Source of the DNA: a virus
DNA: 29,075 bases
Reading direction: 5' to 3' (one strand)
Virus record (IMG/VR): IMGVR_UViG_3300025736_000132
Coordinates: 1-29,075 of that record
Shown here: positions 7,518 to 23,632 of the stretch, piece by piece
Layout of the letters: each line of letters starts with the position of its first letter
Position numbering within the stretch: the stretch's first letter is position 1
Notes under the pieces: model-generated
What the model was told of the DNA's origin: nothing
Databases searched by the model: none
The model's input: the letters and a program-made list of their open reading frames with translations, nothing else
Translations under genes and position numbers: made by a program

Positions 7518-8512
7518 TGAACAGAACTGAAATGATCAAAATTATCCGGAGCATCATGCCGGGAACTGATTCTTCTGGAAGCTCGGTAGGGCAATCCGAA
7601 TGTATCGTCTTCAAGGATGGGAATGCCTACACCTTCAACGACATGGTTGCCATGCGCACGGCAGTGCCTTTCATTTTCGAAGGGGCAATTGAAGCGTCTA
7701 AGTTTTTATTGGCTCTGCAAAGTTTTGATAGCGATACAGTAAAAATTAAACAAAAGGATGACCATATCATTTGTCGAGGAGGGAAAAGGCAGACCACTCA
7801 TGCGATTAATTCAAACATTGAGCTTCCGATCAGCATTGTGGATCTGCCTCGGAAATGGCGTCCGGTGCCGGGGGAATTTACCAAGGCCCTTCAAACTGTA
7901 GCCCGGATTGCAGGCAGGGATGAAAATAAGTATACCTTAACTTGCGTGCATATTGCGAAGGACCGGATTGAGGCTACTGATAATATCCAGCTCATGCGAT
8001 GGCCCATGACAACCGGGCTCCGGATGAGCGCTTTGATTTCAGCCAGAACAGCACTTATGCTAACAAAGTATAATATTACGGACTCAGGCATCACTGACCA
8101 ATGGCTCCACTTTAAGGACGATACGGGACTTGTCTATTCGATTCGAACACATGAAGACACCTACCCTGATATTTCAGAGTTCCTTGAAGTGAATGGGACT
8201 CCAATCGTGTTCCCTCCGGACATCGGGGAATGCGCCTCTCGGGCTGCGGGCTTCTTAGAGTCCGCTAAAGATGATGGCGTAAAAGTCACTCTGGAAGAGG
8301 GGCGGATCTTTATATCTGGTGAAGGCAGTGCTGTCATTTATGAAGAACGTGCTCTGGTGGACTATGAAGGAGATCCCATTTCCTTCTTTGTCAACCCTGG
8401 AATCTGCCAGAAGCTTTCCAAGGAAGCGGAAGAGACGATTATCTCCGCTGACCGGATCAAAGTGACCACTCCGGATTACGAATACGTGGCCATGCTTCAG
8501 GCCGTTAAATAA
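7517..8512 (+). CDS. DNA sliding clamp (beta-clamp-like)
   Basis: 331 residues, slightly shorter than bacterial DnaN (about 366). Sequence similarity is weak but the landmarks fit: L.CVHI....IEATDNIQLMRW (about 134-157) corresponds to the DnaN pattern L.G......ATD..RL; HEDTYPDISEFL corresponds to the (F/Y)PD segment; ISFFVNPGICQKLSKEA corresponds to F..N...L.. in domain III; and the protein ends in a strand (YEYVAMLQAVK) like DnaN. It would encircle DNA and tether the phage polymerase. A clamp-loader ATPase is encoded at 13380 and polymerase and exonuclease follow directly, which supports the call. The first base overlaps the previous stop. Confidence 0.65.
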   Translation: MNRTEMIKIIRSIMPGTDSSGSSVGQSECIVFKDGNAYTFNDMVAMRTAVPFIFEGAIEASKFLLALQSFDSDTVKIKQKDDHIICRGGKRQTTHAINSNIELPISIVDLPRKWRPVPGEFTKALQTVARIAGRDENKYTLTCVHIAKDRIEATDNIQLMRWPMTTGLRMSALISARTALMLTKYNITDSGITDQWLHFKDDTGLVYSIRTHEDTYPDISEFLEVNGTPIVFPPDIGECASRAAGFLESAKDDGVKVTLEEGRIFISGEGSAVIYEERALVDYEGDPISFFVNPGICQKLSKEAEETIISADRIKVTTPDYEYVAMLQAVK

Positions 8513-9756
8513 TGGGATTCCTACCTGAGAGTAAACTACAATGCAAGAAAGCCCCCACGTCCACCAAGAAATGCGGCGGGGCCTGCAAGCTCAATCTAGG
8601 ATGCCAGCGGCCTTATCAGAAATCTTATGGCTCCGGCGCTCTGTCTGTGCTCTTCATCGGAAGCTCCCCTTCGAAAGTAGAAGATACCGATGGGGTTAAA
8701 ATGAAAGGCCCTGCTAGTTCGATGCTTAAACAACTCTCACGCAAAGCAGGAATAAGGATAGATGAATGCACTAAAATAAATGCCGTGCGCTGTTATGCTC
8801 CCGAAGATCTGACAGATAATGAAATTAATGCCTGCCGATTATTTGTGGATGAATCCATTAAAGAAATCAATCCAGAAGTTATCATTCCCATGGGGTCAGC
8901 GGCGATCAAATCTGTTCTGGCACCTGAGTGGGGCGCTAAGGTGGGGGGATTCCCTCGTTGGGTAGGGTTCCAAATCCCTTCCCGGCGGTTGAATGCTTGG
9001 ATCTGCCCGACATACCATCCACATTGGGTTCTTGAAAAAGACGATGAAGTATTAGTTGATATCTTACAGGAGCACCTGGAAGACGCTTCTTGTCTATTAG
9101 GCACCCGCCCGGATAATTCGTGGGAACCTTCTACTGAGGTTACAGTTCTCATGGAACCAGAAAAGATCATTGAACGACTGCAGTACTACAGAGAGACAGG
9201 AGGGACTATTGCTTTTGACTATGAGACAACGGGGCTTAAGCCCGACGCTTCTCACATGGAGATTGTATCCAACTCAGTCTGTTATAACGGCCTGGAAACC
9301 ATTGCATACCTTATGGATGATACTGAAGTCATAGACGAGACCAGAAAGCTGTTGGAAGACCCCTCCACTGGAAAGATAGCTACTAATATGAAATTTGAAC
9401 ATCGCTGGACCCAAGAGAAGATGGGGACCACCGTACAGAATTGGGTCTGGGATACAATGCTGGCTTCTCATGTCCAGGACTGTCGAAGAGAAGTTAATTC
9501 GGTAAAGTTTCAAGCTTACCTGCGGTACGGGATAGGGGATTACAATAGCCACATCCACAAATACCTGACCGCTAAGGGTTCCAATGAATGCAATAATATT
9601 CGGGAGCTCGATGTCGGAGACCTCCTGCTCTATAATGGCATGGATTCTATTTTAGAATATCATGTAGCCGTTGACCAAATGCGAGAATGCGGGATACCAT
9701 GGCAGGAAAGCCAATATCGTAGGAAAAAGAAGAAAAATAAAAGGAGTGAGCGATGA
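8512..9756 (+). CDS. Uracil-DNA glycosylase-like domain fused to a 3'-5' exonuclease
   Basis: 414 residues. Residues 1-195 resemble the Fe-S type (family 4-like) uracil-DNA glycosylase superfamily: Cys at 21, 25, 31 and 94 as candidate cluster ligands, VLFIGSSPSKVEDTDG (46-61), INAVRC (89-94) and the C-terminal PTYHP (166-170). Residues 225-390 form a DEDDy exonuclease as in DNA polymerase I: exo I FDYETTGL (235-242), exo II TNMKFEH (291-297) and exo III YNGMD (374-378). Exo II has Glu instead of the usual Asp. In SPO1-type polymerases these two domains sit ahead of the polymerase in one chain; here the chain ends after the exonuclease with a basic tail, and the polymerase is encoded two genes later. 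It would proofread and perhaps detect uracil in the template. The stop overlaps the next ATG (ATGA). Confidence 0.82.
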   Translation: MGFLPESKLQCKKAPTSTKKCGGACKLNLGCQRPYQKSYGSGALSVLFIGSSPSKVEDTDGVKMKGPASSMLKQLSRKAGIRIDECTKINAVRCYAPEDLTDNEINACRLFVDESIKEINPEVIIPMGSAAIKSVLAPEWGAKVGGFPRWVGFQIPSRRLNAWICPTYHPHWVLEKDDEVLVDILQEHLEDASCLLGTRPDNSWEPSTEVTVLMEPEKIIERLQYYRETGGTIAFDYETTGLKPDASHMEIVSNSVCYNGLETIAYLMDDTEVIDETRKLLEDPSTGKIATNMKFEHRWTQEKMGTTVQNWVWDTMLASHVQDCRREVNSVKFQAYLRYGIGDYNSHIHKYLTAKGSNECNNIRELDVGDLLLYNGMDSILEYHVAVDQMRECGIPWQESQYRRKKKKNKRSER

Positions 9757-9968
9757 GTGAAGAGCCTGTAATATATGAGTGCCCTAACTGTGGGGTACAA
9801 ATGTATAAGATAGCAATCGATAAGGCCAAGTACAATTATCTCTGCCCTAGGTGCCGGACTGAAAAGATATCCTACTTCACCAAAGTCATTGATGACGATA
9901 TCGCCATGCACGCCCGAAATCACCCCGAACCCTATATGACTAAAGCTGTCAGAGGAGATTTCGGATGA
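9753..9968 (+). CDS. Zinc-ribbon protein between exonuclease and polymerase genes
   Basis: 71 residues, AAGGAG ribosome binding site. CPNCG (10-14) and CPRC (32-35) form a classic zinc ribbon; the rest is charged. It is joined by ATGA overlaps to the UDG-exonuclease gene before it and the polymerase gene after it, so the three are likely translated together. Position suggests a bridging or DNA-contact subunit between the separated proofreading and polymerising chains; that is inference. It could also be an unrelated small regulator. Confidence 0.65.
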   Translation: MSEEPVIYECPNCGVQMYKIAIDKAKYNYLCPRCRTEKISYFTKVIDDDIAMHARNHPEPYMTKAVRGDFG

Positions 9969-12481
9969 ATCCTCGCACAGTTGAAGCCTACCAGATACTC
10001 CATGATGGTTCTGTGGCCCTTGCTGAAGTCGAGAGGGCAGGAATGCCTGTGGACCTAGAATATTGTAAGCGTGAGTCCCGGCGCACGCTCATGAGAGCGG
10101 AGAGGCTTAAAGAGAAGATCATAGACAGCGATACAGGCCAACTCTGGAAGCGAATTTACGGCCCCCGGCTAAATTTTAAGTCCCCCAACCAAATGCGGAA
10201 TATCTTTTTCAACAAGCTGAAGCTTGAACCAGTGGGGTTCACGGAGACAGGCAAGCCGTCACTGGACGCCCAGGCCCTTGACATAATGCAGACCCGATAT
10301 CACTTGCCCTTCGTGCAAGACTTTATCCGCATGAAAAAGCTCCTAAAGATTGAAGGGACCTACCTCCGGGCCTTTGAAAGAGAGTCAGTGAATGGGGTGG
10401 TTCATCCATTCTTTAACCTCCACACCGTGCGCAGTTATCGATCGTGCATTGCCGAGTACGAAGAGATTACTGTCGTGCCAGAAGGGACCAAGAGCCCCCA
10501 ACAGGTCCCCATCAAGGACGTGAAGGTCGGGGATATGGTTTACTGTATGGACGATGACCTGAATCCCCAGATCAAGAAGGTTCTCTGGCAAGGGAAGACG
10601 GGCGACCGGGAAGTAATCCGGGTGCATTATTACCGTAAGGGCAAGCGAGGGCACATAGACTGCACCCCAGAGCACAGGATTAGAATGATCGACGGAAGCT
10701 ATGTCGAAGCCCAAGACCTGATGAAGGGCGACCACTATAAGAAGAAAAGCCCTAAAGAGCGCAACAATCGTGTCCTGGCTTGCAGTCGCGCTCGTGACGA
10801 AGTCTTCTTCACAAACCACCTAAAACACGGAAGAGGCATGAAAGAGTATCGATTCCTGTACAAAAAGCTTATCGGGCCATTGAAAAAAAATGAAGTAATC
10901 CACCATAAAGACCATAACCACTGTAACAACGAGCTAGATAATCTGCAAAAGATGACCAAAAGCGAACATGCCTCTCATCATTGTCCTGAGACGATAATGA
11001 GCCCCACAAGCAGGGCAAACAATCTGATTGCAGTGAAAAAAGCGCATAAGGAAGGAAGGTATCCCCCTCCTACAGGAGAAGAACACGCCCATTATCTCGG
11101 GCTGTCCCGTCAAATGTGTCTGCGGATACTGGCGCGAGGCAGAGGTAAAATCAAAGCAGGGGCCGATGCAAACGGCACCGATTTTGACACACTCAAAAAG
11201 TACCTAAAAATACACAGCATTGATTGGCGTATCGTCAAACTGCGATACGACAAAAATGGGAAGTATATATCTCGCGGACGCTTGAAGAAGCTCCACCCAC
11301 TCGGGCGCAAAGCGGTATCTAATCTGCTCGGACACAATCATTATAAGTTGATTGCACTGTACGAGCACTATGGCATGGACACAAAGCGAAAGTGGGGGAA
11401 TGCCCAAGGTGCGTTTGCTCCTGGAAATCATGTTATCACAAGCGTGGAATGGATTAAGAAGACTGTCCCTGTCTACGATTTGGAAGTGGAGGACTGCCAT
11501 AATTTCTTTGTAAACGAGATTTTAGCACATAATTCGAGTAACGCGCCGAATTTTCAGCAATTACCTTTGCGGGACCCGGAGATGGGCAAAGTAGTTCGAG
11601 GCGCAATCAAGGCACCTCCGGGGTACTGCATCGTGGAGAATGACTATTCCGGCATGGAGGTAGGCATTGGCGCTTGCTCCCACAAAGATCGGAACATGGT
11701 CGAATACATCACAGATAAGTCAAAGGACATGCACCGGGACAGCGCCATGGATATCTTTAAGCTGTCTGAAGATCAGGTATCGAAAGAGATCAGACAGTCA
11801 ATTAAGAGCGGGTTTGTTTTTCCCCAGTTCTACGGTTCTTATTATGTGGAATGCGCTAAAAATATTTATGATTCTGTGGGGCAGCTTGGCCTAAAGTTAG
11901 CTGACGGAAGCTCTTTAGAGGCGCACATGGAACGAGTAGGCATCGGAGACCGGGGAGAGTGCGATCCCGAAGAAAAACCTATAACAGGCACTTTTGAATA
12001 CCACGTACAGCAGATGGAAAGAATATTGTGGGAAGAACGATTCCCTGTTTTCAATAATTGGCGCCACGAAATTTACGATAAGTATAAAGAGGATTTATTT
12101 TTTGACTCCCTCACAGGCTTCCGATACGAGGGCTATTTTCGACGTAATGAGGTGATTAACTTCGGCACCCAGGGATCGGCATTTCATTGTCTGCTTAAGG
12201 CTGTAATAATTCTTGTGGGGGAATTATCCCAGAGGAAGATGAAAACGCGGGTAATCGGGCAAATTCATGACTCCATTGTAGCCTTGGTCCATATGGATGA
12301 ACTTCAATTCTATTTGGATCTGGTTTACGATATCATGGCTAAGCGGGTGAAGAAAGAATGGAAATGGATTATCGTTCCCTTAGAAGTGGATGCCGATGTC
12401 ACCCCAGAGGCAGGAAGCTGGGCCCAAAAAGCCGCATGGACAAAAGATAACGGTATTTGGGGTCCTGCAAAGAAAAAATAA
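9965..12481 (+). CDS. Family A DNA polymerase (polymerase domain) containing an intein
   Basis: 838 residues as translated; about 475 after removal of an in-frame intein (residues 161-523). The mature protein has the family A polymerase motifs: the template-contact region HTVRSYRS|SSNAPNFQQLP at the intein junction, motif A VENDYSG (catalytic Asp 560), motif B R610-x3-K614 running into FVFPQFYG, and motif C QIHDS (His 768, Asp 769). There is no exonuclease domain; that activity is on the separate chain at 8512. The first 160 residues correspond to the thumb. It would be the replicative polymerase, working with the clamp at 7517 and loader at 13380. It starts in an ATGA overlap with the zinc-ribbon gene, and a regulatory motif follows the stop. 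Confidence 0.93.
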   Translation: MNPRTVEAYQILHDGSVALAEVERAGMPVDLEYCKRESRRTLMRAERLKEKIIDSDTGQLWKRIYGPRLNFKSPNQMRNIFFNKLKLEPVGFTETGKPSLDAQALDIMQTRYHLPFVQDFIRMKKLLKIEGTYLRAFERESVNGVVHPFFNLHTVRSYRSCIAEYEEITVVPEGTKSPQQVPIKDVKVGDMVYCMDDDLNPQIKKVLWQGKTGDREVIRVHYYRKGKRGHIDCTPEHRIRMIDGSYVEAQDLMKGDHYKKKSPKERNNRVLACSRARDEVFFTNHLKHGRGMKEYRFLYKKLIGPLKKNEVIHHKDHNHCNNELDNLQKMTKSEHASHHCPETIMSPTSRANNLIAVKKAHKEGRYPPPTGEEHAHYLGLSRQMCLRILARGRGKIKAGADANGTDFDTLKKYLKIHSIDWRIVKLRYDKNGKYISRGRLKKLHPLGRKAVSNLLGHNHYKLIALYEHYGMDTKRKWGNAQGAFAPGNHVITSVEWIKKTVPVYDLEVEDCHNFFVNEILAHNSSNAPNFQQLPLRDPEMGKVVRGAIKAPPGYCIVENDYSGMEVGIGACSHKDRNMVEYITDKSKDMHRDSAMDIFKLSEDQVSKEIRQSIKSGFVFPQFYGSYYVECAKNIYDSVGQLGLKLADGSSLEAHMERVGIGDRGECDPEEKPITGTFEYHVQQMERILWEERFPVFNNWRHEIYDKYKEDLFFDSLTGFRYEGYFRRNEVINFGTQGSAFHCLLKAVIILVGELSQRKMKTRVIGQIHDSIVALVHMDELQFYLDLVYDIMAKRVKKEWKWIIVPLEVDADVTPEAGSWAQKAAWTKDNGIWGPAKKK
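10445..11533 (+). mobile_element. Intein with HNH homing endonuclease inside the polymerase
   Basis: 363 residues (161-523 of the host ORF). It begins with Cys 161 and ends in His-Asn (522-523) followed by Ser 524, the residues needed for standard protein splicing. Splicing block B is seen as CTPEH (T234, H237); blocks F and G as VPVYDLEVEDCHNFFVNEILAHN in the last residues. Between them lies an HNH endonuclease core: HHKDHNHCNN (313-322) with LDNLQ and a distal His pair (about 339-340). A basic helical part (about 375-490) may be the DNA-recognition region. The insertion splits the conserved polymerase segment RS|SSNAPNFQQLP, a typical intein choice of a highly conserved active-site region. 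Homing activity is inferred; HNH residues look intact. Confidence 0.93.
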
Positions 12482-17281: not shown

Positions 17282-18379
17282 ATGGCAAAGAAACGGTCAG
17301 ATAGAATTAAGGAGGCCATCGATGCCCCGGAGGAAGAAGCTCCCGAGAAGTTTAAGCGAAGTGAATACCTCTCTTCCGGGAGCACCATGCTCAATCTGGC
17401 ACTCACTGACAGTCCCCACGGCGCATTCCGGAAGGGTTGCTACTACTACCTTGTTGGGGACTCTTCTTCCGGAAAGACCTTTTTGTCTTGCACTTCGCTT
17501 GCAGAAGCTGCGCAAAGTCCTATATTTAGTGGACACCGTTTCATTTTCGATGATGTGGAAAACGGTGCGCTTATGGACATGGAGCGATTCTTTGGAAAGA
17601 CTATGGCAGAACGCCTGGAAGCGCCTCGGGTCGTTAATAAGGAAAACGTCTTCTCCAGCACCATCGAAGACTTCTATTTTCATATCGATGATGCTCTCTC
17701 CGATGGGCGCCCCTTCATCTATGTCCTTGACTCGATGGATTGTCTCACGTCTGAGAAAGAAAGTTCTGAGTTTGATGACAACAAAAAGCTTGCCCGTAAA
17801 GGAAAAGACCAAGGCGGAAGCTACGGTGACGGGAAAGCCAAGAAAAACTCCGCCGGTATGCGAACCCTCGTCAACCGACTCAAGAAAACTGAATCAATCC
17901 TGATCGTCATCTCCCAGACCCGAGACAACATAGGCTTCGGGGCACAGTTTAACCCTAAGGTGCGCTCCGGCGGCCATGCCTTGAAATTCTACAGCACCTG
18001 TGAGATCTGGAGTTCGGTCATCGGCAAGATCGAAAAGGGCGTAAAGGGAAAGAAGCGCAATGTCGGAAAGCGAATCCAAATCGAGACAAAGAAGAATCGT
18101 CATACAGGGCGTGAAGGTAAGGTGGAGACTCCCATTTACCCCAGCTACGGGATCGATGACATGGAAGCCTGCATCAATTATTTAATTGAGGAGGACCATT
18201 GGGAAGCTTCTGGACAAAAGATCAAGGCCCCGGAGCTTTCTTTTGAGGGAACGCAAAAGAAGCTGATCGAAAAAATAGAAAGCGAAAACCTGGAGGCGAA
18301 AGTGCGCAAGGCCACTGGCATGGTGTGGAATGCCATTAATGACGCCTGCTCCCATAAACGGAAAAAGCGGTATGAATAA
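17282..18379 (+). CDS. RecA/UvsX-like recombinase
   Basis: 365 residues, about the size of RecA and UvsX. Walker A GDSSSGKT (59-66); acidic strand FIFDDVENG; Walker B region FIYVLDSMDCL; a disordered-loop segment rich in Lys/Gly (KGKDQGGSYGDGKAKKNSAG), corresponding to DNA-binding loop L1; and IVISQTRDNIG, then GG.ALKF, corresponding to the Q/R strand and L2 region. It would form filaments on SSB-coated single strands and pair homologous DNA for recombination-dependent replication. GAAAGGA precedes the ATG by 6 bp. The stop overlaps the next start by 8 bp. Confidence 0.88.
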   Translation: MAKKRSDRIKEAIDAPEEEAPEKFKRSEYLSSGSTMLNLALTDSPHGAFRKGCYYYLVGDSSSGKTFLSCTSLAEAAQSPIFSGHRFIFDDVENGALMDMERFFGKTMAERLEAPRVVNKENVFSSTIEDFYFHIDDALSDGRPFIYVLDSMDCLTSEKESSEFDDNKKLARKGKDQGGSYGDGKAKKNSAGMRTLVNRLKKTESILIVISQTRDNIGFGAQFNPKVRSGGHALKFYSTCEIWSSVIGKIEKGVKGKKRNVGKRIQIETKKNRHTGREGKVETPIYPSYGIDDMEACINYLIEEDHWEASGQKIKAPELSFEGTQKKLIEKIESENLEAKVRKATGMVWNAINDACSHKRKKRYE

Positions 18380-18668
18380 GATTAGCATTTCAGGGACACT
18401 CCACATGGAAGCTGTGCGTTCTTCTATAGGGCTCTCTCTGCGTACTTCTTTTAAAGAAGATGGGGAAGTGCGTGATGTCTTTGCCTGCTGGACAAAAGCT
18501 TCTGAAGTTAGTGGCAATATCAGATCATTTATTGAGGGGTGCCGTGCGGATCACCCTGAATCCCTTATGATGGGGTTCACTTCATTTTCGCAGGATGCCG
18601 CTATGGTGCTTCAAGGGGATGCTCCCGAAGCAATAAACACTTTTGGAATAGGAGAAAAATGTGGCTAA
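18372..18668 (+). CDS. Hypothetical protein
   Basis: 98 residues from the ATG at 18372. An earlier in-frame ATG lies inside the recA gene and adds nothing recognisable. Content: a strand (KISISGTL), a basic/hydrophobic middle, and a helical C-terminus. No family recognised. It is overlapped at both ends by neighbours (8 bp with recA, 8 bp with the resolvase gene), so it is probably translationally coupled to both. Confidence 0.6.
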   Translation: MNKISISGTLHMEAVRSSIGLSLRTSFKEDGEVRDVFACWTKASEVSGNIRSFIEGCRADHPESLMMGFTSFSQDAAMVLQGDAPEAINTFGIGEKCG

Positions 18669-19236
18669 AGGCGCACCTTTTGAGCGGGAGCTCTCTAAAC
18701 AATTATCCTTGTGGTGGACAGCAGACGAAGACGAACCCAGTGATGCCGTGTTCTGGCGCACCTCTCAGTCCGGAGGCAGGGCCACCACCCGGGAGAAGTC
18801 CGGGAAGAAGACCACAGGGCAGTACGGGGACATCACCGCCACCGATCCCATAGGACAGCCCCTCATTGAGTTGGTGAGCATCGAGGCCAAGAACGGGTAC
18901 AATAACCGAGACATCATGCAGTTCCTTGACGCCAAGAAGATCCCTAAGGCTTCTCTGCTGGAGTTTATCAATCAAGCTTCTCGGGATGCACTGCGGGCAG
19001 AAGTTCCCTACTGGTGGATGATCCATAAGAGGGACCGCAAACAGCCGATGCTCTACACTACTCCTGGGTTTTTGTTAGACCTCACAAAGATCAACACAGG
19101 AATAGTATTTCTCAGTTCCGCCATTCTTACCGTTGGCGGGCGAATGATAGGAGCGGTCCCCTGGGAAGATTTCCTAAATATCGTCGAGGCCAAGGTAGTC
19201 AAAAGATTATGGAGAAAAACATGTTCAAAAAGCTGA
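18661..19236 (+). CDS. PD-(D/E)XK nuclease, Holliday-junction-resolvase-like
   Basis: 191 residues with a GTG start, chosen because AGGAG lies 6-7 bp upstream and the FERE motif follows directly. FERELS (E10), FWRTSQSGGRAT (31-42), QYGDITA (Asp 57) and SIEAKNGY (Glu 75, Lys 77) give the E...D...ExK order of a PD-(D/E)XK active site as in archaeal-type junction resolvases. The C-terminal half (KINTGIVFLSS...) is mixed. It would cut branched recombination intermediates made by the RecA/UvsX and Mre11-Rad50 proteins of this cluster. It overlaps the Rad50 N-half gene by 16 bp. Confidence 0.75.
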   Translation: MAKGAPFERELSKQLSLWWTADEDEPSDAVFWRTSQSGGRATTREKSGKKTTGQYGDITATDPIGQPLIELVSIEAKNGYNNRDIMQFLDAKKIPKASLLEFINQASRDALRAEVPYWWMIHKRDRKQPMLYTTPGFLLDLTKINTGIVFLSSAILTVGGRMIGAVPWEDFLNIVEAKVVKRLWRKTCSKS

Positions 19237-20138
19237 CCCTTAAAAACTTCCAGGCGCACGAAAATACTGTAATCGACTTCGCCCCAGGGGTGAACGTAAT
19301 CGTCGGTAGATCTGATCGAGGCAAGTCCAGTATTATTCGGGCACTGCAACTACTTTTCTTTAATCGTCCGGGAGGTAAAGCATACATTCGTCATGGAGCT
19401 AAGGAGTGCCGAGTAGAAGCAGAGATGGCTTCGGGGCAAATAGTTAAACGCTTGCGCACTAAGTCTAAGAATGAATATCAGGTAGGCGCCAACCCCGCAT
19501 TAAAAGCTCCTGGCCGAGACGTTCCGCCAGAAGTCATGGAAATCTGCCCTATGCAAGAGATCAACTTCCAAGGGCAGCACGATAGCCCATTCATGCTTGC
19601 GGAGACTGCGGGAGAGTGCGGCCGCATGCTCAATAAATGCGTAGATCTTACAATTATTGACCGCACGCTGAATGACTTGAACACGAAGAAGCGAAACGCT
19701 ACTGGAAAGTTGCAGCATTCCGTTGAAGCTATCTCCGAACAAAGAGAAGAAATTACCCGATATAAAACAGTTCCAGCCATGATTTTAGATTCAAAAAGCC
19801 TCGCCGTGTTACTGAGTAGTTGCGTGGATCTTGAAGAGAAGCTGACATCTCTTGCTACTGCTGTTGATTCGTTTGAAAGACTTACTGCAGATTTAAAGGC
19901 GCTTCCGAACCCCGCTGAAGGACTCGAAGCGCTCACTGCCTTAGAGACCACAGTTAGGCAGGAGGCTAAGGATAAAGCGCACTTAGCCGAGCTTCAGGAT
20001 TCTATTGAGCTCGTGGCGGAGACTGAAGGGGATTTACGAGATATGGCAGAAAGCGAGAAACACCTAAAAGCTGAACTGGACGAAATTATGGGAGAAACGT
20101 GCCCGCTCTGTGGGCAAGCAACAGGAGGTATAGAATGA
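19221..20138 (+). CDS. Rad50/SbcC N-terminal half, ending just after the zinc hook
   Basis: 305 residues from the ATG at 19221, which has GGAG at the ideal distance; an upstream ATG at 19209 has none. FKKLTLKNFQAHENTVIDF and Walker A GRSDRGKSS (29-37) are typical Rad50/SbcC. The Q-loop is INFQGQHDSPFML (about 107-119). Then comes a coiled coil, and the chain ends ETCPLCGQATGGIE: the zinc-hook CxxC (Cys 294 and 297) followed by eight residues and a stop. A full-length Rad50 would continue with a returning coil, signature motif and Walker B; these are in the separate gene at 21852. The halves would have to assemble as a complex to make an ATP site. The stop overlaps the Mre11 start by 4 bp (ATGA). 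Confidence 0.88.
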   Translation: MFKKLTLKNFQAHENTVIDFAPGVNVIVGRSDRGKSSIIRALQLLFFNRPGGKAYIRHGAKECRVEAEMASGQIVKRLRTKSKNEYQVGANPALKAPGRDVPPEVMEICPMQEINFQGQHDSPFMLAETAGECGRMLNKCVDLTIIDRTLNDLNTKKRNATGKLQHSVEAISEQREEITRYKTVPAMILDSKSLAVLLSSCVDLEEKLTSLATAVDSFERLTADLKALPNPAEGLEALTALETTVRQEAKDKAHLAELQDSIELVAETEGDLRDMAESEKHLKAELDEIMGETCPLCGQATGGIE

Positions 20139-21028
20139 GAAAACCTATCGCCGTAGCCTGTAGTGACATCCATCTCTCTGACACGGCCCCTGTGGCCCGT
20201 GGGGATGAACCCAACTGGCACCAGAAGCAAAAAGAAGCGCTAAACTTCATTGTGGATGCTTCCCTTGAACATCATGTGCCTTTGATTATGGCAGGAGATC
20301 TCTTCCATAAGGCCCGGGCTACTCCTGCTATGGAGATCCTTGCCATGGATTGCCTTCGCAGGACAAAGCTAATTATGATCCCCGGGCAGCACGACCTACC
20401 CAACCACTCGATCGATAATGTCGGACGCAGTTCCTATGGGGTCGTTTGCACCCATCTGACTATGCTCGACTGCTTTGCCCACTTTGGGGACGCCTTTGCC
20501 TGCACTTCTTATAGCTACGGGGAGGACAGGGGAAAGGCGTGCCCCACAGAAAACAAGAACCACATCGCCGTCATGCACGATCTAGTATGGCGTGGAAAAC
20601 CCCCATACCCTGGGGCGCCTGAAGGAGGCAACACACAGAACCTCGTAGACAGTATGCCGGGGTACGACTTCATTGTGGCCGGGGACAACCACAAGGGCTT
20701 TTCCCAAACTGTAGGGGATACCGTAATAGTAAACTGCGGAAGCATGATGCGTCGTTCCTCAGACCAAGAGAACTACAAGCCCAGGGCATACATTCTCTAC
20801 GATGACAAGACCGCCGAGCCTTTCTGCCTCCCCATCCAGAGCGATGTATTCTCTCGGGAGCATCGGGATGAGAAGAACGCCAAGGATGCCAGAGTGGAGG
20901 CATTTGTTAATCGCCTCCAGGATATCGAAGTGGAGCTCTGCTATGAGACCAATATGACTCGATTCTGCAAGGCCAATAAAGTAGATAAAGAAATCATAAT
21001 TATTTTACAGGAGGCAATGAATGTTTGA
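20135..21028 (+). CDS. Mre11/SbcD-like nuclease (metallophosphoesterase)
   Basis: 297 residues from the ATG at 20135 with AGGAGGT upstream. Metal-binding motifs in order: CSDIHLS (D11, H13), MAGDLFHKA (D55), GQHD (85-87, the GNHD motif with Gln for Asn), MHD (H148) and AGDNH (184-186, the GHxH position). Shorter than bacterial SbcD (about 400) because the capping/C-terminal region is small. It would be the nuclease partner of the split Rad50 encoded on both sides of it, processing DNA ends for recombination. ATGA overlap before, 8-bp overlap with the next gene. Confidence 0.87.
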   Translation: MRKPIAVACSDIHLSDTAPVARGDEPNWHQKQKEALNFIVDASLEHHVPLIMAGDLFHKARATPAMEILAMDCLRRTKLIMIPGQHDLPNHSIDNVGRSSYGVVCTHLTMLDCFAHFGDAFACTSYSYGEDRGKACPTENKNHIAVMHDLVWRGKPPYPGAPEGGNTQNLVDSMPGYDFIVAGDNHKGFSQTVGDTVIVNCGSMMRRSSDQENYKPRAYILYDDKTAEPFCLPIQSDVFSREHRDEKNAKDARVEAFVNRLQDIEVELCYETNMTRFCKANKVDKEIIIILQEAMNV

Positions 21029-21236
21029 TGAGCCTGAAATACGAAGAGGACCAAAACGAAAACCACGGGCAGAGATCCGAAGTAAGTTTGTACAGGTCAC
21101 ATTAACGCCTTGGGAAAAACAACAGCTTGATGATATGGCTTCGGTTCAAGGAGTGACTGCAAGTAGTATTATTCGAAATCTTTTTACCCAATTATTAAGA
21201 GAAAGAGGCATCGAATTACCCCAATCTGAATTTTAA
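21021..21236 (+). CDS. Ribbon-helix-helix DNA-binding protein
   Basis: 71 residues, CAGGAGG before the ATG. After a basic N-terminus (RRGPKRKPRAE) comes KFVQVTLTPWEKQQLDDMASVQGVTASSIIRNLFTQLLRERG, which fits the ribbon-helix-helix (Arc/CopG) pattern: a short beta strand, a helix, a Gly turn, and a second helix starting with S/T. Such dimers act as transcriptional repressors. It is followed immediately by the third bipartite motif, which could be its operator. Confidence 0.7.
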   Translation: MFDEPEIRRGPKRKPRAEIRSKFVQVTLTPWEKQQLDDMASVQGVTASSIIRNLFTQLLRERGIELPQSEF

Positions 21237-21267
21237 TGACGAAAATCTAACTTCAAATGACATAGTA
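21237..21267 (+). promoter_or_regulatory. Bipartite motif copy 3 (candidate phage promoter/operator)
   Basis: TGACGAAAA (21237-21245), 13 bases, GACATAGTA (21259-21267), immediately after the TAA of the ribbon-helix-helix gene and 12 bp before the next ATG. The downstream TATTAT/TATACT seen in copies 1 and 2 is not present here (AAAGGG instead, which serves as part of the ribosome binding site). The start site would therefore be very close to the start codon if it is a promoter. Confidence 0.55.
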
Positions 21268-21279
21268 AAGGGAAGAGAC

Positions 21280-21495
21280 ATGACAAGGGAGTTCAACACT
21301 GTAACAATTTGGACCGGAGATAATTGTCCGGAATGCACAAAAGCAATAGCCGTTTACAAACTCAAAGGATTTAAAATAACCGAGATTAAAGCCTCTCTGC
21401 TACTTTCGGGAGAAATCCCTGACATAAACGCCCTTGCCTCTCTCGCCGCGCAAGGGATGAAGCTTCCGCTGATTCAAGAAGGAGTTGGGACATGA
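21280..21495 (+). CDS. Glutaredoxin/NrdH-like redoxin
   Basis: 71 residues. The beta strand NTVTIWTGDNCPECTKAIAVYKLKGFKITEIK carries a CPEC (17-20) redox motif at the start of helix 1, as in glutaredoxin and NrdH; MKLPLIQEG near the end corresponds to the cis-Pro strand. It would reduce disulfides, commonly for ribonucleotide reductase, although no reductase gene is in this window. GGGAAGAG precedes the ATG. Confidence 0.75.
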   Translation: MTREFNTVTIWTGDNCPECTKAIAVYKLKGFKITEIKASLLLSGEIPDINALASLAAQGMKLPLIQEGVGT

Positions 21496-21629
21496 AGATA
21501 CGAATACGGTGGGATTTATTCAAACTGTCAGGTAAGCGGCATGCGGGCGGGTTTTCTTTGGTGGTTAATGACACTGATGAAGACGGCAAGTTCTTCAAGG
21601 CGTTGTTTACGGGGGGAGAGCAGTTATGA
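21492..21629 (+). CDS. Small hypothetical protein
   Basis: 45 residues. Starts 4 bp inside the end of the glutaredoxin gene (ATGA) with GGAGTTGGG upstream, and its stop overlaps the next ATG (ATGA). Basic N-terminus (MKIRIRWDLFKLSGKR), then strands. No family recognised; the precise coupling on both sides is the main evidence that it is translated. Confidence 0.5.
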   Translation: MKIRIRWDLFKLSGKRHAGGFSLVVNDTDEDGKFFKALFTGGEQL

Positions 21630-21871
21630 GCGCATTACAAAAGATCATGCGATTTAAAAAAGACCTAGAGGGAATCACCACGGCCCGGGCACAGAAGGAA
21701 GGAGCCCTGGCTGAACGTCGCCGGGATCTCATAGAACTCTGCGGGACTGATGACGTAATGGAGGCTCGGGATACGTTGAAAGAACTCCGGGACGAACTGG
21801 CCGAAGTGGAGGCCCAATTAACTGCCGCACTCACTGGATTTGAGGAACAATATGCAGACTTCATTAACTAG
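21626..21871 (+). CDS. Coiled-coil protein, possible returning coil of the split Rad50
   Basis: 81 residues, nearly all helix with heptad-like Leu/Val/Ala spacing (LKELRDELAEVEAQLTAAL). It carries one Cys but no CxxC hook. It lies directly ahead of, and overlaps by 20 bp, the gene for the C-terminal Rad50 half. Taken with that gene it gives about 275 residues, close to the 305 of the N-terminal half. It may supply part of the descending arm of the Rad50 coil, or regulate the complex; this is inference. GGGGGAGAG precedes the ATG. Confidence 0.6.
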   Translation: MSALQKIMRFKKDLEGITTARAQKEGALAERRRDLIELCGTDDVMEARDTLKELRDELAEVEAQLTAALTGFEEQYADFIN

Positions 21872-22436
21872 CAAGGTGCGCAGGGCGCTTTCCATTACCC
21901 AAAAGGCCCAGGCACAACTTGAGTATGCTTCTGACCTATTAAAAAAAGAAACACTGAAGAAGCGTTCCATTATGCGCCTAGAATCCAATATGGAAGAGGC
22001 ACTGCTGATTGCGCAAGAGGTTGCCCAGCAGACTCAGGAAGAATTGGAATTTCAAGTGTCGGCACTGGTCACTAATGCCTTAGCTTCTATCTTTCCGGAC
22101 CCCTATGAGTTTAAGGTGGAATTTGAAATCAAACGGGGAAAGACTGAAGCGGCTATGTTCTTTACCCGGGGCGGAGAAGAGATTGATCCCTTAACAGCTT
22201 CCGGAGGGGGGGTAGTTGATATCGCCGCATTTGCTTTGCGCCTATCCGCTTTCCTTATTTCTGCGGAAAAACCGCCCCCTATCATTGTACTCGATGAACC
22301 ATTTTCGTGTGTCTCCGAAAACTACCTTCCCGCAGTCGCAGAACTCATGGAAGAAATGGCGGACAAGTTGGGAATCCAATTTATTATGGTGACCCATTTG
22401 AATACTTTGGAAATTGGCAATGTAATTAGAATGTAG
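21852..22436 (+). CDS. Rad50/SbcC C-terminal half
   Basis: 194 residues from the ATG at 21852 with GAGGA five bases upstream; a TTG four codons earlier is less likely. Residues 1-70 are coiled coil. ASGGG (116-120) is the ABC signature position (LSGGE-like in Rad50), Walker B is IIVLDEP (144-150) with catalytic Glu 149, the D-loop follows (FSCVSE), and MVTH (179-182) is the H-loop. There is no Walker A, which is on the N-terminal half at 19221, about 1.7 kb upstream, with Mre11, the ribbon-helix-helix, redoxin and two small genes in between. Together the halves have a full set of Rad50 ATPase motifs. Confidence 0.87.
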   Translation: MQTSLTSKVRRALSITQKAQAQLEYASDLLKKETLKKRSIMRLESNMEEALLIAQEVAQQTQEELEFQVSALVTNALASIFPDPYEFKVEFEIKRGKTEAAMFFTRGGEEIDPLTASGGGVVDIAAFALRLSAFLISAEKPPPIIVLDEPFSCVSENYLPAVAELMEEMADKLGIQFIMVTHLNTLEIGNVIRM

Positions 22437-22444
22437 GAGAAAGC

Positions 22445-23632
22445 ATGAACGTCATTTGCAGTGAGAAGATACCCGTTAAGCTCTGGTTGGACGATATTGA
22501 GGATGGGGCGTTGGTACAAGCGAAAGCACTGGCCAATCTACCCTTCGCCTTTCACCACATCGCCATCATGCCCGACAGCCACCAAGGATACGGTATGCCA
22601 ATCGGCGGGGTAATGGCGACCAAGGGAGTAGTGGTGCCCAATGCAGTAGGAGTTGATATAGGTTGCGGCATGTGCGCCGTGAGGACTTCTATCACGGCGC
22701 GAGATTTTTCACAGGAAGCCCTCAAGTCGATTCTGGGAGGATCAAAAGAACGCCAAGGAGGCATTCGTTCCCATATCCCCGTGGGCCGGTCCCACCATAA
22801 GAAAAAACAGGAATGGGAAGGATTTGACCGAGCACCCAACATCCCGGTGGTTACTGCGCAGTTGAGTTCAGCCAGAAAGCAATTGGGATCACTTGGAGGA
22901 GGCAACCACTTCATTGAAATCCAGGAGAGCGATGACGGTTATATTTGGATCATGCTCCATTCAGGCTCCCGGAACTTCGGCTATCAAATTGCAAGGGTGT
23001 TTAACCAATTAGCGCAAGATCTTTGCAAAAAGTGGTATTCCGCTGTCCCTGAATTTAAGGGACAGGACGGGCTTGCCTTCCTCCCCCTGGATACACAGGA
23101 AGGGCAGGACTACATGGAAGCGATGAATTATGCGCTTGAGTTTGCCCTCGCAAGCCGCTTCAGCATGATCGATCAGGTGAAGCATGCATTTACCAAAACA
23201 GTCGGTTGCACATTCGGCACTATCATTAACAAAAACCATAACTTCGCGTCTATGGAAAACCACTTTGGGGCGAACGTTATGGTACACCGTAAGGGGGCGA
23301 CCTCCGCCCGTGCCGGAGAACTTGGGATCATCCCGGGCTCACAGGGGACTAAAAGCTATATTGTGCGGGGGCTCGGGAACCCGGACTCCTTTAACTCCTG
23401 CTCACACGGGGCTGGCAGGAAGCTCTCTCGCAAGAAGGCGCAAAGAGAATTAAACCTGGAGGACGAAATTAAAGCACTTGACGATCAGGGCATTCTACAT
23501 GCCGTGCGGGGTGCGGGTGATCTCGATGAGGCACCAGGGGCCTACAAGGACATCGCTAAGGTGATGGCTAATCAAACTGATCTTGTGGAAGTTGTTACAG
23601 AACTCACCCCATTGGCTGTTATCAAAGGTTAG
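22445..23632 (+). CDS. rtcB: RtcB-type RNA ligase
   Basis: 395 residues, normal length for RtcB. PDSHQGYGMPIGGV (43-56), DIGCGM (71-76, Mn-binding Asp and Cys), GGGNHF, HSGSRNFG, HRKGATSA, GSQGTKSY and SHGAGR (guanylate-accepting His) are all present. RtcB joins 2',3'-cyclic phosphate and 5'-OH RNA ends using GTP and Mn. In a phage it would most plausibly repair tRNA or rRNA cut by host anticodon nucleases, as T4 does with a different ligase. No archease partner is visible. Its translation start, AGGAGAAAGCATGA, is identical to those of the next two genes. Confidence 0.95.
   Translation: MNVICSEKIPVKLWLDDIEDGALVQAKALANLPFAFHHIAIMPDSHQGYGMPIGGVMATKGVVVPNAVGVDIGCGMCAVRTSITARDFSQEALKSILGGSKERQGGIRSHIPVGRSHHKKKQEWEGFDRAPNIPVVTAQLSSARKQLGSLGGGNHFIEIQESDDGYIWIMLHSGSRNFGYQIARVFNQLAQDLCKKWYSAVPEFKGQDGLAFLPLDTQEGQDYMEAMNYALEFALASRFSMIDQVKHAFTKTVGCTFGTIINKNHNFASMENHFGANVMVHRKGATSARAGELGIIPGSQGTKSYIVRGLGNPDSFNSCSHGAGRKLSRKKAQRELNLEDEIKALDDQGILHAVRGAGDLDEAPGAYKDIAKVMANQTDLVEVVTELTPLAVIKG

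Follow-up and report, generated by a model that had tools for sequence, protein, structure and literature searches.

A Rad50 encoded as two halves, with the zinc hook ending one chain, in a probable phage and bacterial Mre11-Rad50 system

Rad50/SbcC is an ATPase of DNA-break repair and, like SMC proteins and their relatives, is usually described as a single long chain folded back on itself. We analysed a 29,075 nucleotide stretch of viral DNA, IMG/VR record IMGVR_UViG_3300025736_000132 (the window), in which the two lobes of a Rad50 are encoded by separate genes with a Mre11/SbcD-like nuclease gene between them and in which the chain carrying the N-lobe ends at the zinc hook. Judged from sequence comparison, these genes very likely encode a functional split Mre11-Rad50, the lobes of which would be joined non-covalently while the hook would link complexes to one another.

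Results

Identity and motifs of the two halves

The Rad50 identity of both halves was confirmed by Pfam, PHROG and PDB profile searches. The N-half of the window matched AAA_23 of Pfam with an expect value (E) of 2e-16, the N-half profile matched archaeal Rad50 (5f3w, 3aux) at E of about 1e-20, and P. furiosus Rad50 ranked first when the AlphaFold2 (AF2) model of the N-half was used in Foldseek. The C-half profile matched the C-terminal chain of P. furiosus Rad50 (3qkr_B, 1ii8_B; E 5e-18), the window C-half matched PHROG 15167 (E 3e-22), and the P. furiosus entries 1f2t/1f2u and 1ii8 were among the best profile matches of the window halves. No match to the SbcC equivalog TIGR00618 was reported for either window half at E <= 0.001, and no dedicated NCBIfam family was reported for the scanned proteins. 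LmuB of the Lamassu system was matched by the N-half through its N-lobe only (E 2e-16); at split loci the neighbourhood shows Mre11, recA and rny and not the genes of a Lamassu set, no search for LmuA or LmuC having been made.

A first-pass annotation of the window, made from its letters, had placed Walker A and the Q-loop on a chain that stops eight residues after a hook CPLC, and the translation agrees with this. Walker A reads GRSDRGKS, the Q-loop is Q119, and the C-terminus, CPLCGQATGGIE, contains the hook C294-P-L-C297, after which exactly eight more residues (GQATGGIE) precede the stop. The signature, Walker B and H-loop (SGGG, VLDEP and MVTH) lie, as had been noted, on a separate gene about 1.7 kb further on, the gap being 1713 bases. 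The gene content thus confirms that hook and ATP signature come from different chains, and instead of one polypeptide with both lobes, two arms and a hook in the middle, separate genes were found at essentially all loci.

Conservation of the catalytic residues was evaluated in alignments. G29, G34, K35 and S36 of Walker A and Q119 of the Q-loop are invariant across 19 N-halves, while in the C-half alignment D148 is invariant, E149 and H182 are conserved in at least 90% and GGG is conserved; Walker A, Q-loop, Walker B and H-loop are accordingly conserved across the split set. In Mre11, D11, H13, D55, H86, D87, H148 and H186 are invariant in 22 sequences, the nuclease motifs are intact by their catalytic D/H residues, and the gene is linked at most loci. 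The earlier statement that all motifs are intact was thereby extended to conserved catalytic residues and refined in two places, the signature being xGGG and not LSGGQ, and Mre11 of the window group having GQHD as motif III and GDNH as motif V where GNHD and GHxH are usual.

Recurrence of the split

A search for other split cases, suggested in the first-pass annotation, returned about 80 further phage or prophage loci that carry the same parts as separate genes, in addition to Bacillota chromosomes. The same split was found by tblastn against phages in Bacillus phage vB_BboS-125, Microcystis phage Mvi-JY20, Microbacterium phage Magritte, Tunturiibacter phage Tunturi_5 and an uncultured 485-kb phage. 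About 75 further loci came from IMG/VR scans and one bacterial-genome scan, which were run with narrower C-half alignments instead of a profile of five distant C-halves. Wherever both were within reach, the N-half (303-534 aa) and the C-half (about 186-245 aa, with an uncertain start codon at some loci) were separate open reading frames (ORFs). CxxC stands at the C-terminus of 35 out of 36 non-redundant N-halves, and in these the stop follows 9-21 residues from the start of CxxC. The exception is Magritte; N-halves of its type (L003:4001-5053, L017:1525-2586) have lost the terminal CxxC and have an arm of ordinary length.

Among the first 13 genomes examined a separate N-half accompanied the C-half in every genome with a C-half, and Mre11 was present in all seven of the first-examined genomes that were searched, with the order N, Mre11, C retained. 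Two compact gene orders were observed, namely N, Mre11, hairpin, C, as in the window, and N, hairpin, C, Mre11 in Firmicutes phages, where the hairpin is a third small protein described below. Magritte-type phages keep the order N, Mre11, C even with tens of kb separating the three genes. The ratio of nonsynonymous to synonymous substitution rates (dN/dS) was 0.21 for N, 0.04 for the hairpin (phage group), 0.06 for C and 0.05 for Mre11. A working multi-part Rad50 as opposed to a decayed gene, the view originally taken, is strongly supported by the split recurring at one and the same place with Mre11 and the coiled coil close by, by the conserved residues and by these dN/dS values of 0.04-0.21. 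The Mre11 gene of Bacillus phage vB_BboS-125 (L001:7238-8218; NC_048735.1 22423-23403) is unannotated. In PHROGs the parts stand in separate families with no link between them, namely 16465 ("exonuclease"), 15167 ("ATPase") and 18563, which is without function and covers part of the hairpin.

Arm geometry and the hairpin protein

In one-chain proteins the distance from Walker A to the hook and that from the hook to Walker B are nearly equal, at 463/475 residues in E. coli SbcC, 246/214 in gp46 and 277/252 in IME392. In the split form the first distance spans 254-480 residues whereas the distance from the start of the C-half to Walker B stays near 150 (median 152). Because the latter is constant while the former varies, the returning arm is absent save for a stub of about 60 residues. 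The stub has this length however long the outgoing arm is, so that the split parts cannot make up a canonical folded-back arm, and in long-armed forms the hairpin is no substitute for the missing arm. The N-arm lengths fall into classes of about 260, 302, 348, 420 and 470. A regular repeat length in the N-arm was rejected, as the best single period of 54.5 misfits the steps and the sequences are related. In the AF2 model of the window N-half (predicted local distance difference test, pLDDT, 83) the arm consists of helices 144-225 and 231-290 with a break at residues 226-230.

The third part is a protein family of 75-95 aa in which two helices flank a short loop (often G-x-x-T/S-x-x-EA). Its gene precedes the C-half at most compact loci, including several that were missed by the hidden Markov model (HMM). 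The 81-aa member in the window is modelled with helices at 3-39 and 44-75 (pLDDT 94). No convincing Pfam or PDB family match was found for the hairpin; PDB profile matches to apolipophorin and phosphoproteins were rejected as coiled-coil noise, and matches of the iterated hairpin HMM on the opposite strand at three loci (L010, L083 and L090) were treated as spurious for the same reason.

It had been suggested that this coiled coil is part of the returning arm, in which case hairpin and C-half stub would rebuild a canonical three-piece Rad50 with the hook at the tip as in SbcC. The sizes in the window nearly sum, with an outgoing arm of about 145 residues against 81 for the hairpin plus about 60 for the stub, and the hairpin gene, present at most loci, is lacking from those that lack the arm. 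The predicted structure is nevertheless a helix-turn-helix hairpin of two antiparallel helices, each about half the length needed, and neither the hairpin, which stays near 80 whatever the length of the N-arm, nor the distance of about 150 in the C-half follows the range of 254-480 between Walker A and hook. Given also the near equality of the two distances in SbcC, gp46 and IME392, we regard a rebuilt canonical arm as unlikely.

The zinc hook

The first-pass annotation had further considered that the hook could join the two halves. The C-half and hairpin families both lack a conserved cysteine pair (CxxC), and for this reason the hook cannot join N-half to C-half. On the sequences compared it can only link N-chains or bind zinc alone. 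The latter would make the terminal CxxC a self-contained zinc knuckle, with arm ends that are not joined and no intermolecular hook. Residues after CxxC are enriched in His/Cys (10.0% vs 2.2% elsewhere, p 3e-12), often as HxH or as C at the extreme end, which could complete a four-ligand zinc site, and CxxC is lost in one subgroup. This enrichment, however, was counted over sequences that are related and is found chiefly in Firmicutes phages, and the window tail GQATGGIE, like many others, has no further Cys or His, leaving the knuckle a rather doubtful alternative to a hook between N-chains.

Fusions and origin of the split

Continuous homologues, which the first-pass annotation had named as a possible refutation, were encountered. 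They are fusions of Mre11, N-lobe and C-lobe from which arm, hook and hairpin are gone, so that the split stands. These are single chains of 684-700 aa in three Bacillota genomes (L171:2764-4818; L172:3652-5754 and L173:3583-5670, both on the minus strand) and represent a natural arm-less minimal Mre11-Rad50. At a further locus (L148) Mre11 is fused to the N-half while the hairpin and C-half remain separate. Because of these four fusions, the two lobes and Mre11 would appear to act together, and the hairpin to go with the arm. Alternatively the halves might work independently of each other, for instance as a RecF-like and an ABC-like ATPase with no head in common, as the distance of tens of kb between the genes in some phages suggests. 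This is highly improbable, as either half alone carries just half of the ABC active site, the two were found together in every complete record that was searched, and both lobes occur naturally fused to Mre11.

In a two-lobe tree the split set forms one clade with a support of 0.96 (0.95 for the C-lobe alone), as measured against only five outgroups that include SbcC, gp46, IME392 and a YhaN-like protein; in the N-lobe-only tree monophyly of the split was not resolved. Bacilli chromosomal and Firmicutes phage forms cluster together. The split is thus probably of single origin.

An error of sequencing or assembly was checked with a second contig, IMGVR_UViG_3300005935_000292, which is 99.92% identical to the window over 14,763 bp. 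None of the 12 differences falls between 17693 and 28915, where the split locus lies, and since this contig is independent the split locus cannot be put down to misassembly. An AP2-domain protein, perhaps of HNH type, lies between the halves in Bacillus phage vB_BboS-125 and could be taken for the trace of a recent homing-endonuclease break. In view of the independent contig, the recurrence at the same point, purifying selection and the monophyly of the split set, the probability of such a break, of gene decay or of an assembly error is close to nil. The ancestral break is possibly of mobile-element origin.

The split system in Bacillota chromosomes

The C-half was found in 49 of 400 Bacilli genomes at E 1e-33 or better. 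The flanks of 20 Bacilli loci show the order Mre11, N-half, hairpin, C-half, and 16 of the 20 fetched regions have recA on one side, followed as a rule by a gene of RecX size, and rny on the other. The C-half is present in 40 of 42 genomes of one Bacilli order, that of genome G062. In a wider sample it occurred in 66 of 399 Bacillota, and the recA/rny neighbourhood was again seen in many of the regions fetched. Chromosomal N-halves have about 17-41 residues after the hook. At one recA-rny locus (L180:4344-5674, oriented) the N-half is in two ORFs of 109 and 280 aa, which is a frameshift or sequencing error.

The distribution of canonical SbcC was compared with that of the split set. TIGR00618 was found in one of the 42 genomes of G062's order, which is one of the two without a split C-half, and a control search for TIGR00618 was positive in 11 of 14 named genomes. 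Among the 399 Bacillota, 66 carried the C-half, 167 carried SbcC and 2 carried both where 27.6 were expected (Fisher p 1e-14, a value inflated by shared ancestry); expressed differently, SbcC is present in 2/66 genomes with the split C-half vs 165/333 without. In the two double carriers (L179, L188) the set is arranged as in phages (N, hairpin, C, Mre11) and lies away from recA/rny, and they may for that reason be prophages. The split set appears to replace ordinary SbcC where it is present in Bacillota.

The window locus

The genes of the locus are listed in Table 1. All five genes between the halves that had been described earlier (Mre11, a ribbon-helix-helix (RHH) protein, a redoxin and two small ORFs, one of them the coiled coil) were located at 20135-21871, filling the gap between N-half and C-half. 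They belong to a dense plus-strand cluster at 17282-23632 that runs from a RecA/UvsX-like protein (17282) through RtcB (22445) and includes a PDDEXK nuclease gene at 18661, upstream of the N-half. Most junctions overlap, by ATGA (N-half/Mre11, glutaredoxin-like/45-aa ORF and 45-aa ORF/coiled coil), 8 nt or, for coiled coil/C-half, 20 nt, as in a translationally coupled operon. The RHH and glutaredoxin-like proteins are, as far as gene content indicates, local passengers outside the conserved set; no counterpart of the RHH protein was found among the recurring parts at the other loci compared.

Table 1. Genes of the split Rad50 locus in the window
Feature	Coordinates	Strand	Details
Rad50 N-half	19221..20138	+	305 aa; Walker A, Q-loop, outgoing arm, terminal hook CPLC at residues 294-297
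Mre11/SbcD-like nuclease	20135..21028	+	Pfam Metallophos/Metallophos_2, PHROG 100
Ribbon-helix-helix (Arc-like) protein	21021..21236	+	PHROG 3431 E 4e-6
Glutaredoxin/thioredoxin-like small protein, CPEC	21280..21495	+	PHROG 22 E 2e-4; Pfam Glutaredoxin E 0.03
45-aa ORF, no function assigned	21492..21629	+	Coupled translationally to both neighbours
Helical-hairpin (coiled-coil) protein, 81 aa, putative third part of split Rad50	21626..21871	+
Rad50 C-half, 194 aa	21852..22436	+	About 60-residue arm stub, xGGG signature, Walker B, H-loop

An RtcB RNA ligase gene (22445-23632) lies directly 3' of the C-half gene. Elsewhere in the window, a family A DNA polymerase gene (9965-12481) is interrupted by an intein-splicing domain with an HNH endonuclease, and a uracil-DNA glycosylase domain and a 3'-5' exonuclease domain are joined in a single protein (8512-9756).

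Discussion

The best reading of these data is that the split form replaces SbcCD and that its hook would join two N-chains. N-half and C-half would assemble non-covalently into one ABC ATPase head, and such heads would form dimers with ATP and power the nuclease Mre11 at the ends of DNA in the manner of SbcCD or gp46/47. The long arm, ending in the zinc hook, would be on the N-half only. The stub of the C-half would pair with the base of the N-arm and the hairpin would pack on the arm or its base, substituting there for the role of the returning arm, while the rest of the arm could pair with a partner N-chain or fold back at breaks such as that at 226-230. Zinc hooks at the ends of N-chains would then hold two complexes together. 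It is possible, and put forward here only tentatively, that this amounts to a distinct class of Rad50 in which the arms of paired N-chains lead to a C-terminal zinc hook and hairpin and stub clamp the base.

Several observations weigh against this interpretation. The signature serine, and LSGGQ as a whole, is not conserved in the C-halves. A small group (Magritte, L017) has lost the hook, which is hence not essential everywhere. A full-length YhaO/YhaN-like pair (L150:7532-11871) lies directly downstream of a split set, so that both forms can coexist. Finally, two candidates per genome were scored in the 399 Bacillota, which makes the absence of SbcC less certain there; the order-level test on 42 genomes, in which up to 14 candidates were scored, is free of that weakness.

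If such a distinct class exists, a continuous folded-back arm of the SMC type is dispensable for Mre11-Rad50 function and the split form is the housekeeping Mre11-Rad50 of many Bacillota. The split set also accounts for the apparent lack of SbcC in many Bacillota, as the genes adjoin recA without a family name of their own. A chain that ends at the hook makes the roles of arm continuity, of the hook and of arm-to-head signalling directly testable, and the re-fused arm-less single chains offer a natural minimal Mre11-Rad50 for comparison.

No description of a split Rad50/SbcC was found in a literature search confined to open-licence papers. With the pairs of Rad50/SbcC and Mre11/SbcD known from SbcCD, archaeal Mre11-Rad50 and T4 gp46/gp47, the split form shares both lobes, the coiled arm, the CxxC hook, the Mre11 partner and nearby RecA-like genes, a link to recombination. 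Unlike SbcCD, it has a chain broken after the hook, a stub of about 60 residues, an extra hairpin protein and an xGGG signature. Splitting of a phage enzyme has a precedent in the ribonucleotide reductase of phage Aeh1, which works from two genes with a homing endonuclease at the break; that case is one phage whereas the split Rad50 is old and widespread.

Natural rearrangements of Mre11-Rad50 are known as fusions in Mimivirus R555 and Bacillus phage 0305phi8-36 (PMC3175470), where the proteins are fused and not split as here. That study (PMC3175470) reports one P-loop NTPase segment as unobserved in both phage 0305phi8-36 and Anaerostipes, and may there have had one side of the same split in view. 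Protein A7KV18 of 0305phi8-36 is a fold match to the window N-half, and we propose tentatively that it may be a Mre11-N-half fusion of the split group like that at L148. A likeness in structure is offered by P. furiosus Rad50, of which 1f2t/1f2u and 1ii8 (A, B) likewise hold N and C as separate chains in one ATPase fold. A two-chain Rad50 fold is thereby established for the construct; those constructs are laboratory-made and without hook or arms, whereas the split described here is natural.

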